NCBI GenBank assembly: GCA_025360495.1
Contig: JANYCC010000257.1
Location: 1-49,151, forward strand
Length of the DNA stretch: 49,151 nt
Direction: 5' to 3'
DNA from: Verrucomicrobiota bacterium
GTDB lineage: Bacteria > Verrucomicrobiota > Verrucomicrobiia > Limisphaerales > UBA9464
Below, piece by piece: positions 25,884 through 36,225 of the stretch (within the stretch, counting starts at the first letter, position 1; each line of letters opens with the position of its first letter). Below the pieces are notes generated by a model. It saw nothing but the letters and a program-made list of their open reading frames with translations, had not been told where the DNA came from and made no database searches. The translations under genes and the position numbers were made by a program.

Positions 25884-25996
25884 GCTTCAGCCGGCCGGGC
25901 GTGCGACACCACCTGCGCCTGCGACCTCACCCTGCGCACCTGCTCGCCTGTCTGCGTCCCAACCACCGCACCCCGTGCCTGCCCTCCGATCTTAGC

Positions 25997-28213
25997 ATGA
26001 CCCCATCCAACCCCGGCAGATCCTCCCGTTGGTTCGTGCTGGCGCTGACCATTCTGGCGCCTTTCGCCCATTCCGCGTCCGCCGCCGAATCCGAGCCCAA
26101 TAACAACCGCGCCCAGGCGAACCCCCTGATCATGGATGGTGCCGGCCATGCCCTGAGCGATGGACGGATCAACCCGCGCCCGGATCTGGACGTGTTCTCG
26201 ATCTCAACCCCGGCGTTCCCCGGGCAAACCACCCTGGTCATCACCATGACCCCGACGGCATCCGATCACGGTTTGGATGCCCGGCTCCAGCTTCAGGACG
26301 CCGACGGCAACGTGCTTGTGGATCGCGATGACGGTTTCGATAACAAGGCCGAGTCCATTTCGTTGACGTCGGCCACCGGTGGAACCTCCTATTTCATCGT
26401 TTGCCGCAGTGCCGATCTGTTCGATTCCGGCTCCGGGGATTACACGCTGCAGGTCGACCTGACCCTTCCGGATGATGTGATCCCCGGCGCGGTGAGACTC
26501 GGTCCGGTGGGACAAACGATCACGAGGTCCGGAGACATCGCGTCGCCGATGGACGTGGACCTTTTTTCATTCACCACCGAGGCCGGGCAATGGCTCTCTT
26601 TTGACCTGGATCGGACTTCGGCCGGGTTCGATTCGGAAATCCGGCTCTTTGATTCCGATGGCACACCGTTGGGCACCAACAATGACGCGTCGGGCCCGGG
26701 AGAATCCGGGGGCTTGGATTCCTATCTGGAATATGTTTTCGCCCATGGGGGCACGTATTATCTGGGGGTGTCGGGCCACGCCAACACCAACTATGATGCC
26801 GCCACGGGGACCGGTCAGACACTGGGCAGCATGGGTTCTTATACCCTGGTCGTTTCACCGGGCCTCGCCGGGAGTATCCGACGGCCGGGTGACACCACCG
26901 AGTATCCGGTGGATATCCTGCGTTACGGATCGGCTGCGCAGGCGATCAACCCCGGGCGGCGGACTTGGATCGTCATCCACGGCTGGAACAGTTCGCGGAC
27001 CAATAATAACATATCGCAACTGGCGGCGAGCCTGCTGGAGGATCGGCCGGAGGACCAGGTCCTGACCTTGGATTGGAGTTCCGCGGCCGACACCGGGCTC
27101 CTGCCGTTCGATGCTGAGTCCTCCATTGTCCCGGTGGCGGAATGGGCCGCCGCGGCGTTGGTCGCCCGCGGCTTCAGTGGAAGGGATCTCAATCTCGTGG
27201 GGCACTCGTTTGGGAGCTATGTGGCCGACGAGATCGCCCAACGGATTCCCGGTGGCGTGAATACGATGGTCACCTTGGACCCGGCCGCGGATGTCTTGGG
27301 CGGCTTTGATCCGGTGTCGGGTGATGAGGTGGATTTCGCCCGGGATTCCGTGTTTTCCTGGTCTTTTCATGCCTCCTCCTTTGGCGATGAGTACACGCCG
27401 GTGACGGCCGATGAATCCTTCCTGGTCGAGAGCGGTCACGATTCCCTGAGCGCCCACCGCGATGTAGTGTTTCTCTTCGCCAACCTGCTGTTGAACCCCA
27501 TTGACGCCGTTGGACGATATTTCCTGCTGACCCGACTCCTCGACGCCGATCCCGGCCCCTGGGTGCCTGATCAGTATGTGTCGGATTTCACGGATGACGA
27601 CCCGGTCCGGGGTTATGACGCCATTCTGTTCACGGGATCCGGCGGCACCAACGCCCAATCAATCCGCTTCGTCACCAACGCACCCATCTTGCAAATCACC
27701 AGCCACGCGGACCGGGCCGATGTCCTCACCAATCCGATCGCCTTGGCCGGGGTTGCAACCGACGCCGGACGGGGAGGCAACGGGATGGCGTCCGTGCTGG
27801 TGAACGGGATCCGGGCCGATGGCGACACTGCCCCGGGATCCGGAGTCGCCAACTGGAGCCGGCTGCTTCGGTTGGTTTACGGCGCCAACGTCATCACCGT
27901 CGTGGGCCGGGATGGGGGCGCCCAACACGCCTCTGTCACCAATGTCATCACCCTGAATTATATCGCCCTGCCCGACCTGGCCATGTCTTTCGCCAACGAT
28001 TCCGTGACGGTTTCCTGGCCGGTTTCCTATGCCACGTTCGCATTGGAAAGGAGCGATGACGTCGGTTCTCCCGATGGCTGGAGTCCGGTGCCAGAGGTTC
28101 CCAATGTCACCGGTCAGCGGTTCGCGATTGTTCTGCCGGCTTCGGAGTCGAGGCGTTTCTTCAGGCTCAGAAATGCCCCATCGGAGGGACGAGTTATACG
28201 AGTCCCCGATTGA
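25997..28213 (+). CDS. Secreted lipase-like alpha/beta hydrolase with two PPC domains
   Basis: 738 residues from ATG 25997, with a signal peptide ending in SASA-A near residue 30. Two bacterial pre-peptidase C-terminal (PPC) domains follow (~31-155 and ~165-290), the first opening with ESEPNNNRAQANPL. A hydrolase domain (~320-500) resembles pancreatic-type lipases: WIVIHGWNSS (oxyanion loop) and LVGHSFGSYV with nucleophile Ser404; Asp428 in LDPAAD and His487 in AHRDVV are the likely triad partners. The tail carries the shared C-terminal module (FALERSDDVGSPDGWSPV to RRFFRLR). The last eleven residues and the stop codon come from a palindromic element (28182-28251), so the original C-terminus was probably at about FFRLRNA. 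Confidence 0.85.
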   Translation: MTPSNPGRSSRWFVLALTILAPFAHSASAAESEPNNNRAQANPLIMDGAGHALSDGRINPRPDLDVFSISTPAFPGQTTLVITMTPTASDHGLDARLQLQDADGNVLVDRDDGFDNKAESISLTSATGGTSYFIVCRSADLFDSGSGDYTLQVDLTLPDDVIPGAVRLGPVGQTITRSGDIASPMDVDLFSFTTEAGQWLSFDLDRTSAGFDSEIRLFDSDGTPLGTNNDASGPGESGGLDSYLEYVFAHGGTYYLGVSGHANTNYDAATGTGQTLGSMGSYTLVVSPGLAGSIRRPGDTTEYPVDILRYGSAAQAINPGRRTWIVIHGWNSSRTNNNISQLAASLLEDRPEDQVLTLDWSSAADTGLLPFDAESSIVPVAEWAAAALVARGFSGRDLNLVGHSFGSYVADEIAQRIPGGVNTMVTLDPAADVLGGFDPVSGDEVDFARDSVFSWSFHASSFGDEYTPVTADESFLVESGHDSLSAHRDVVFLFANLLLNPIDAVGRYFLLTRLLDADPGPWVPDQYVSDFTDDDPVRGYDAILFTGSGGTNAQSIRFVTNAPILQITSHADRADVLTNPIALAGVATDAGRGGNGMASVLVNGIRADGDTAPGSGVANWSRLLRLVYGANVITVVGRDGGAQHASVTNVITLNYIALPDLAMSFANDSVTVSWPVSYATFALERSDDVGSPDGWSPVPEVPNVTGQRFAIVLPASESRRFFRLRNAPSEGRVIRVPD

Positions 28214-28251
28214 TCCGGTTCGAAATGGGACTCTCAGAGCTCGTCCCTCCG
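28182..28251. repeat. Palindromic (REP/MITE-like) element at the lipase gene end
   Basis: A 70-bp near-perfect palindrome. The outer 12-bp arms CGGAGGGACGAG (28182-28193) and CTCGTCCCTCCG (28240-28251) are exact complements. After six unpaired bases on each side, GAGTCCC (28200-28206) pairs with GGGACTC (28227-28233). The lipase stop codon (28211-28213) sits in the loop. It lies between convergent genes, so it could also act as a bidirectional terminator, although it has no T-tract. Confidence 0.8.
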
Positions 28252-28261
28252 GAGGGTGCGG

Positions 28262-29053
28262 TCACCAATACCCGAACGCCCCTTGGTCGTCCCACAGATA
28301 GGAGGACCGGTACCGTTTCATCAGCTTGATATCCCGCCACGATGCGGAACCGTCGAGTCGGCCGAGGTTGCCACCCTGCGCACCCACATCGCGAGGGGTC
28401 TGGGTGAGTGCCTCGGGATGGGTGTTGAAATAGGCCTCTGCGCGGACCACCGGGCCGCGTGCACTGTGCGGTGCGAGGATGCGCTCGAAGCTCGAGCAAA
28501 ACAGGTTGAGATCAGCGACCAGCACGGCTTGGGGATCGTCGCTGAGCTTCTGTGGCGAGATCCATACGTTGGTTCCCTGAACCGGCATCCAAGGGGTCTT
28601 TGCCCGGCCCCCGAGATAGTGGTAACCGATGGCGATTCCATAGTCGGAATGGATCCGCCAACCCGCTTTTTGGGCCATCCACGGCGCGAGGTTCGGACAA
28701 TCCAGGGATTTCAATTCACGGGCGTAGCGCAGGATGTTCGTCTGGGTGGCGCTGGATAGAATCGGCGTGTGGGTGTCGTCCGAATTCTTGTTGTCGGTGT
28801 CGGGCCTCGGCAGGAGGTCGGAGTTGTCACCGGCATAAAGGTGGGCCGCCAGGGTGAACTGCCGGATGGTGCTGAAACAGGTGGACCGATGGGCCCTCTC
28901 CTTGGCGCCGGCCAGGGCGGGCAACAGCATCCCGGCGAGGATCGCAATGATGGCGATGACCACCAACAACTCGATGAGGGTGAAGGCACCCCCTGTCGGG
29001 ACCCCGAAGGTATCCGGGGATGGGTCCGTGCGGGAAGGGGGAAACCGTTTCAT
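28262..29053 (-). CDS. Prepilin-type N-terminal domain protein
   Basis: 263 residues from ATG 29053 (MKRFPPSR); the longer frame to 29146 is less likely. After a ~21-residue leader comes [20 protein letters not shown], then [19 protein letters not shown], the standard verrucomicrobial prepilin N-terminus with Glu5. The C-terminal region keeps [13 protein letters not shown], aligning with the DG of the H-X9-DG motif, but the expected His is replaced by Gly. It faces the lipase gene across the palindromic element. Function as in the family: a pseudopilin-like exported protein. Confidence 0.87.
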
Positions 29054-29155
29054 GGCCTGCACCGGTTTGCTATCTGTCCGCACCCTGCCTCCAATCGGGA
29101 TCGGGTACAAGGATCGGGTGGGCCGGTCCGGTTTCCCCGGGAACATCCATCTTGA

Positions 29156-35140: not shown

Positions 35141-35218
35141 AAGTATTCGTTTCAATCTCCCTCTCTTCCGGAGGCACGAGGACGAGACACGAGGAGGAGG
35201 ACCGCATGGTTGGCTGAC

Positions 35219-35345
35219 CCCTCTCCCCGGCCCTCTCCCCGCTCGTTCCTCGCGGGGCGAGGGAGACCGGAAAGGCCGGTGTAGCAGCGCATGGGAATGC
35301 GCTTTGGCTGCGCCCCTTCTCCCTCCCTTCCTGAGGGACGACGGA
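35219..35345. repeat. Intergenic inverted-repeat cluster between DUF1080 and tetR genes
   Basis: The 257-bp spacer 35096-35352 holds a GC-rich imperfect inverted repeat CCCTCTCCCCGC with GCGGGGCGAGGG (35231-35262), a hairpin GCGCAT/ATGCGC (35288-35303), and TCCCT/AGGGA (35323-35337). This resembles a degenerate interspersed repeat and may also end transcription of the DUF1080 gene. No coding sequence is credible here. Confidence 0.5.
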
Positions 35346-35352
35346 AGACCGG

Positions 35353-36225
35353 TCATTTCATCGGTTCCAATGGCCGCACTTCAATTCCCCGGAAAAAGAT
35401 CTCGGCGGACTCGGACTGGAGTTGGATCCGACCTTGCGTCAGCGGCTCCAAGCCCCCGGTTCCCGGACCGCGCAGGTTCAACAGGATGAGGTTCGTCCGT
35501 CCATTGATCACGTGCACGGCGCGGTCGCCCGAGCAGATCACCTCGGCGGTGTTCCAACGGCCCAAGGGAAGGTCGGCACTGCCAGAACTCATCAGGCCGT
35601 CAGCGAAAGTGCGGCGTTCCCCACCGGGCCATGCCTGCCAGGGCATTCCCCCGACGCCGTTGCGCTGCCGCCACGCTTGAAGGAGCGGCAGCAGGAGCGG
35701 GTCGGAGTCGAGTCGGCGGACTTCGGCGTCGGCCTGCACGCCGCCCACGGGCCAGAAATCGCCGCTGTCCACCTCCGCCAGACTGCATTGGGAACCGGTC
35801 AACCAAAGGCTTCCCTTCGGTGGCGCCGAACCGGACGAATGATAGAACACGCCGCTATCCCGTTGGTCCGTGGCGCGGGGAGGCCAGCGGAGTTGCCCCC
35901 ACTTATACTCCACGAGGAGGCGGAAATTGCGGTACGAACCGGTGCTGACCAAGGCGCCGCAGACCTCGCCCGAACACCGGATCGCGGGCCGGCCGTCGTT
36001 GGTCACCACCGTGAAGACCCGGCGCGGGTCGCGGTTCCATCCGATGGCCGGACGTCCCTCCGCCTCCGGGCCCAGCCAGGTCTCCCACCCCGCGAGATTG
36101 CGGCCGTTGAACAACGCTCGGCCCCCGGGTTCGGCGGCCAGGGAAATCACGCCCATCATCAGTCCGAACACGGCGGCGACCCAATTCATCCATGGTGGGC
36201 ATGACGGTGCCAACCCCTGGCTCAT
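35353..36225 (-). CDS. DUF1080 / 3-keto-disaccharide hydrolase domain protein, secreted
   Basis: 290 residues from ATG 36225; ATG 36189, giving MNWVAAVFGLMMGVISLAA directly as a signal peptide, and GTG 36255 are alternatives. The mature part opens with GRALFNGRNLAGWETW, the hallmark of DUF1080, then VEYKWGQLRWP, DSGVFYHSSG, GRWNTAEVICSGDRAVHVING and the closing GRIQLQSESAEIFFRGIEVRPL. It is a concanavalin-like fold frequent in Verrucomicrobiota and Planctomycetota; some members hydrolyse 3-keto-glycosides. It lies 48 bp downstream of the SMP-30-type gene, so the two may form a sugar-related operon. Confidence 0.9.
   Translation of the reverse strand: MSQGLAPSCPPWMNWVAAVFGLMMGVISLAAEPGGRALFNGRNLAGWETWLGPEAEGRPAIGWNRDPRRVFTVVTNDGRPAIRCSGEVCGALVSTGSYRNFRLLVEYKWGQLRWPPRATDQRDSGVFYHSSGSAPPKGSLWLTGSQCSLAEVDSGDFWPVGGVQADAEVRRLDSDPLLLPLLQAWRQRNGVGGMPWQAWPGGERRTFADGLMSSGSADLPLGRWNTAEVICSGDRAVHVINGRTNLILLNLRGPGTGGLEPLTQGRIQLQSESAEIFFRGIEVRPLEPMK

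Follow-up and report, generated by a model that had tools for sequence, protein, structure and literature searches.

A heterotypic REPIN-type element at the 3′ end of a lipase gene in a Verrucomicrobiota bacterium

The window analyzed here is a 49,151-nucleotide stretch of contig JANYCC010000257.1 from a Verrucomicrobiota bacterium (assembly GCA_025360495.1). It contains a lipase gene with PPC and Lipase domains and, facing it, a convergent prepilin-like gene. A palindromic element lies between them and contains the last codons of the lipase reading frame (Table 1). Because the prepilin-like gene ends at 28262, with its stop codon (28262-28264) starting 4 nt past the element, the element fills the intergenic gap.

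Table 1. Features at the 3′ end of the lipase gene, in window positions.
Feature	Position	Strand	Basis
Whole REPIN-type element (core and conserved 8-nt outer flanks)	28175..28258	.	Core arms from the sequence; outer part from the unit profile (93 of 99)
REP unit type B, GGAGGGACGAGTTATACGAGTCCC	28183..28206	+	Repeat searches and unit scan
Spacer/loop, 20 nt, with the lipase stop codon	28207..28226	+	Sequence and unit scan
Lipase TGA stop within the element (unit offset 28)	28211..28213	+	ORF reading
REP unit type A, GGAGGGACGAGCTCTGAGAGTCCC	28227..28250	-	Repeat searches and unit scan
Element-encoded tail APSEGRVIRVPD	28175..28210	+	Frame, unit profile, and homologue comparison
Lipase ORF (PPC + Lipase PF00151), last 12 codons and stop in the element; start codon uncertain	25901..28213	+	
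Prepilin-like convergent gene (N_methyl), its stop codon 4 nt past the element	28262..29146	-	

The first-pass annotation described a 70-bp palindrome at 28182-28251 with two sets of arms and the lipase stop codon in its loop. The 12-bp arms CGGAGGGACGAG (28182-28193) and CTCGTCCCTCCG (28240-28251) are perfect complements, a second 7-bp stem pairs GAGTCCC (28200-28206) with GGGACTC (28227-28233), and the TGA does fall in the 20-nt loop. The palindrome is real but constitutes only the core of an 84-bp element: conservation extends to 8 nt outside each unit in a profile of 93 units, which sets the limits of the window copy at 28175-28258. Likewise, the pairing holds, but the two arms come from different unit types. 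The region folds as RNA at -55.2 kcal/mol (z = -7.5; none of 200 shuffles is equally stable) and as DNA with z = -5.2. Folded singly, the units form weak hairpins, and the stability resides in the pair. No Rfam model matches the element.

The host genome comprises 5.8 Mb in 482 contigs and is 92.8% complete. It holds 60 exact matches to the pattern GGAGGGACGAG-N(1-20)-GTCCC versus none for the reversed control, which bears out the first-pass expectation of further copies. BLAST returns at least 95 pieces, with 40 of 70 candidates scored. A unit scan allowing up to 4 substitutions, applied to the window and to stretches from all contigs with pattern or BLAST matches, finds at least 99 related 24-nt units in at least 55 clusters; all copy counts are lower bounds. 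There are two unit types, A (GAGCTCCGAGAGTCCC) and B (GAGTTAYACGAGTCCC), and the 32 adjacent convergent pairs comprise 28 A/B, 3 B/B, and 1 A/A. Among the 31 convergent pairs with gaps under 50 nt, 15 have their units exactly 20 nt apart, one wider-gap pair being left out of this count, and the spacers are partly conserved among copies. The unit profile retains 93 of the 99 units, excluding those that have short flanks or carry 3 or more substitutions. Units start with GGAG and the preceding position is C in 96% of the 93, giving a hairpin foot of CGGA/GGAG. The canonical GT[AG]G tetranucleotide is absent from the foot, which places the family outside the GTAG REP superfamily.

REPINs are doublets of REP units that form hairpins (Bertels and Rainey 2011, PMC3116915). 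The family described here has the corresponding features, namely a dispersed short unit, inverted pairs with a typical spacing and a long hairpin, and a mainly intergenic location. The element is of REPIN type, composed of two inverted, non-identical REP units (B and A) approximately 20 nt apart. As in the REPINs of PMC3116915, dispersed inverted short units with typical spacing form mostly intergenic hairpins. The published REPINs are tied to RAYT transposases, a tie seen here in relatives only; as described there, Pseudomonas doublets are mostly of identical units, whereas the pair here is A/B. E. coli BIMEs also combine two inverted unit types, Y and Z, but are described with a GTAG foot and have another sequence (PMC2817692, PMC8266576). 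The novelty lies in this particular, well-supported repeat family, with its non-GTAG foot and A/B pairing. A literature search recognized no description of the GGAGGGACGAG-unit family, which is not proof that the family is unpublished, and searching with the 11-base unit head returned unrelated papers only.

Copies of the repeat show a bias toward the 3′ ends of genes. Based on home-made gene calls that use codon usage rather than standard annotation, the 55 clusters comprise 24 in codirectional spacers, 19 in convergent spacers, 7 in divergent spacers, 3 inside genes, and 2 at contig edges. Fifty of the 55 thus lie between called genes, and the 3′ end of a gene enters 7 of these 50. Codirectional clusters are nearer the 3′ end of the upstream gene in 22 of 24 cases, at a median of 9.5 nt from that end and 78.5 nt from the next start. 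Convergent spacers are enriched: they make up 19 of the 47 spacers that hold an element but 19 of the 129 that lack one (Fisher p = 7e-4).

This placement, together with the very stable hairpin in a convergent gap, would suit an ordinary bidirectional terminator that had by chance grown across the lipase stop. Such an origin is nevertheless highly unlikely, given that the sequence is repeated genome-wide with conserved units and spacing, that some copies lie within genes, and that no T run follows the element and a pattern scan finds no terminator within it. The element may still act as a terminator incidentally. The position of codirectional clusters just behind stop codons also raises the idea of a REPIN that is now a selected 3′-end module, slowing ribosomes or protecting the end of the lipase mRNA; in E. 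coli, REPs less than 16 nt from a stop reportedly reduce translation (Liang 2015, cited in PMC12306157). It is rather unlikely that the element serves in this way, since the repeat is patchy among relatives (14 of 57, plus the host genome) and occupies many sites beside unrelated genes, as mobile DNA does.

The lipase C-terminus reads FFRLRNAPSEGRVIRVPD followed by the stop. The element opens at 28175 with the first position of the Ala codon in FFRLRN-APSEGRVIRVPD, which puts all 12 residues of the tail, as well as the TGA, inside the element, where the first-pass annotation had allowed for nearly all or all of it. The search for lipase homologues covered 50 genomes from the family, 320 from the order, and a named genome collection. 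The order search yields nine homologues besides the lipase itself, eight of them complete. Six of the eight stop three residues past F-[FYW]-R-x, with the ends FFRLKQR, FFRVRVP (twice), FYRVIER, FWRLRQR, and FYRAKLN; the homologue in genome G058 ends AFRIW, and that in G031 is without such a module. PSEGRVIRVPD is missing in all eight, so the tail is not conserved, and none of the eight carries a REP unit within the next 130 nt.

The first-pass proposal of an insertion near the original stop is supported by the repeat copies and the tail-less homologues. The exact insertion point is an inference: the contig of the closest homologue (G050, 63% identity) ends before the gene does, and none of eight genomes of the same genus yields a lipase orthologue; the named collection holds only a truncated homologue (L198, JACQFS010000062.1) and one distant homologue, and no precise empty site occurs among the homologues found in the searched genomes. 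The further proposal that the element supplies a new stop is true of this copy but not general. The TGA belongs to a spacer variant, GATTGA, where other copies often read GATCGA, and a stop codon at unit offset 28 is found in 6 of the 99 units.

Entry of the repeat into reading frames is not confined to the lipase. In 10 of the 55 clusters a gene enters the repeat in frame. The repeat forms tails in the lipase, an FGE-like protein, a FeeM-like acyltransferase, a PQQ-repeat protein, an AcrB-type pump, an aminotransferase, and a GT9 glycosyltransferase, and internal inserts in a GSDH-type dehydrogenase, a PBP1C-like protein, and a WD40/cytochrome protein. The doublet is easily read through, with a mean of 4.1 of 6 frames open in 31 doublets versus 2.7 in shuffles. 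In the PBP1C-like gene (L144, G000:C125, 1567-3888), an in-frame insert of approximately 30 residues lies between the transglycosylase and transpeptidase domains; the alignment breaks exactly at the element in all 16 relatives compared, none of which has the insert. The evidence on mobility is of this kind, presence versus absence in relatives. The GT9 tail AEGRAPRVPN is missing in all 29 relatives examined of the 33 with a match. The GSDH insert, compared in five of six homologues (G018 left out), sits in a low-complexity linker, and for these two reasons the PBP1C insert alone is treated as clear-cut. The family offers a clean, readily verified example of a very short, probably mobile repeat that contributes protein sequence, with homologues showing the insert-free state.

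The lipase (window 28211), FGE-like, and GT9 genes (the latter two at G000:C161 and G000:C329) use the same TGA at unit offset 28, and these three unrelated gene ends share [SA]EGRxxRxP[DN] before the stop in one frame. The pattern is partly circular, because tails are defined by their stop, and was also spotted post hoc. This shared ending could be read as a functional tail, such as a sorting or protease signal, that was recruited from the repeat. That reading is barely credible: the common peptide is what translation of the repeat yields, the lipase, the FGE-like enzyme, and the glycosyltransferase differ, and homologues manage without the tail. It is also decidedly improbable that the REPIN family acts as a portable gene-ending cassette, which would land behind stops and, where a stop was swallowed, come under selection for one fixed loop TGA, so that unrelated proteins share [SA]EGRxxRxP[DN] together with a ready mRNA-end hairpin. 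In these genomes, C-termini of the form SEGRxxRxP or RRDELxES should be recognized as repeat-derived.

REPs within genes and REP-supplied stop codons are already known, including for a verrucomicrobium: repeats tagged GTAG/CGTC are also found within ORFs, some supplying stop codons, and O. terrae (Verrucomicrobia) is described as the richest in intragenic GTAG repeats (PMC3733652). The present family likewise lies behind genes, in unidirectional and convergent gaps, and sometimes within or at the end of ORFs; its foot is instead CGGA/GGAG, and its stop is a spacer TGA rather than the TAG of the GTAG end. The palindromic elements of Rickettsia, as reported in PMC3733652, also occur in frame within protein genes but are unrelated in sequence, whereas most copies here are intergenic.

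The feature at the lipase 3′ end is very probably a mobile repeat copy of REPIN type, inserted there and adding APSEGRVIRVPD and a stop codon. In this account, a heterotypic B/A REPIN would have entered the short stretch between the lipase gene and its convergent neighbour, at the lipase 3′ end. The original stop, probably directly after FFRLRN, would have been displaced or separated, such that translation now continues into the element, runs through the 5′ arm, and ends at the loop TGA. The resulting tail may be close to neutral. The repeat was probably spread by a transposase. A RAYT is the likeliest agent for the spread of such a heterotypic REPIN; as an HUH transposase of RAYT type, it would act on the single-stranded hairpin.

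The repeat pattern occurs in 15 of 58 genomes, the host included. Six relatives (G046, G050, G035, G002, G033, and G036) hold 11 to 42 matches each; single matches in relatives may be due to chance, because the reversed control also scatters 10 matches. RAYT-like genes (NF047646) are present in 51 of the 58 genomes, with 16 above the cut-off. In G046, a relative of the same order, a RAYT ORF (L163:1949-2449) has repeat arrays to either side, of 7 and 5 units. These arrays, at 1290-2935 of L163 (G046:C31, 15200-19600), are tandem REPIN units of approximately 97 bp and likewise pair an A-like with a B-like partner. The L163 RAYT scores 72.5 bits, whereas the NF047646 cut-off is 80. Among the 58 genomes, its nearest relative lies in G022, is 52% identical, and has a unit approximately 190 nt behind its ORF, probably a second case of the RAYT association.

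Canonical REP feet read GT[AG]G, and those of TnpA-REP class 3 read CnGA (PMC6006769). The CGGA foot fits the class 3 form, and both are high-copy repeats; however, the Y----Q motif described for class 3 is not found in the L163 RAYT, whose YVMENP is a class 2 motif. A repeat family from a Verrucomicrobia-type genome that combines RAYT linkage in relatives, an unusual foot, and a pair of unit types is useful for studying RAYT target recognition.

In the host genome, the best match to the L163 RAYT (C365) is 40% identical and flanked by a different repeat. No RAYT flanked by a GGAGGGACGAG-family repeat is found in the host assembly, which is weak evidence of absence given its 92.8% completeness and 482 contigs, and a PF01797 search of the genome gives two matches, neither with the repeat nearby. 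The repeat family appears to be RAYT-linked in relatives, and its partner in the host would be missing or unassembled.

Several other RAYT genes were considered as partners and set aside. The L077 RAYT of G050 (C97, near 1921) has a canonical GTAG repeat, GTAGGGACGACCCGCCGGGTCGTCCC, in its close flank and was not counted; G050 carries many GGAGGGACGAG units besides this RAYT. L151 in G035 is a mere RAYT fragment beside a related, perfectly palindromic unit and was not counted. The two host RAYTs, at C365 and C158, were rejected as partners since other repeats flank both.

The window also contains another GC-rich palindromic stretch (CTCTCCCCGGCCCTCTCCCCGCTCGTTCCTCGCGGGGCGAGGGAG) at 35160-35360, where four sequences in the space of 260 bp nearly match GAGGGACGAG; the unit scan does not place it in the family of the lipase element. 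The inverted repeats of the host RAYTs lie at 1316-1451 and 2008-2115 of L091 (C365) and at 707-1682 of L152 (C158), with the sequences GGGCGAGGCTCCGCCCGAGCCG and GTAGCCGACGAGGTACGAGGCGGA. Each host RAYT has its own distinct repeats, so this genome carries at least three REP-like families.
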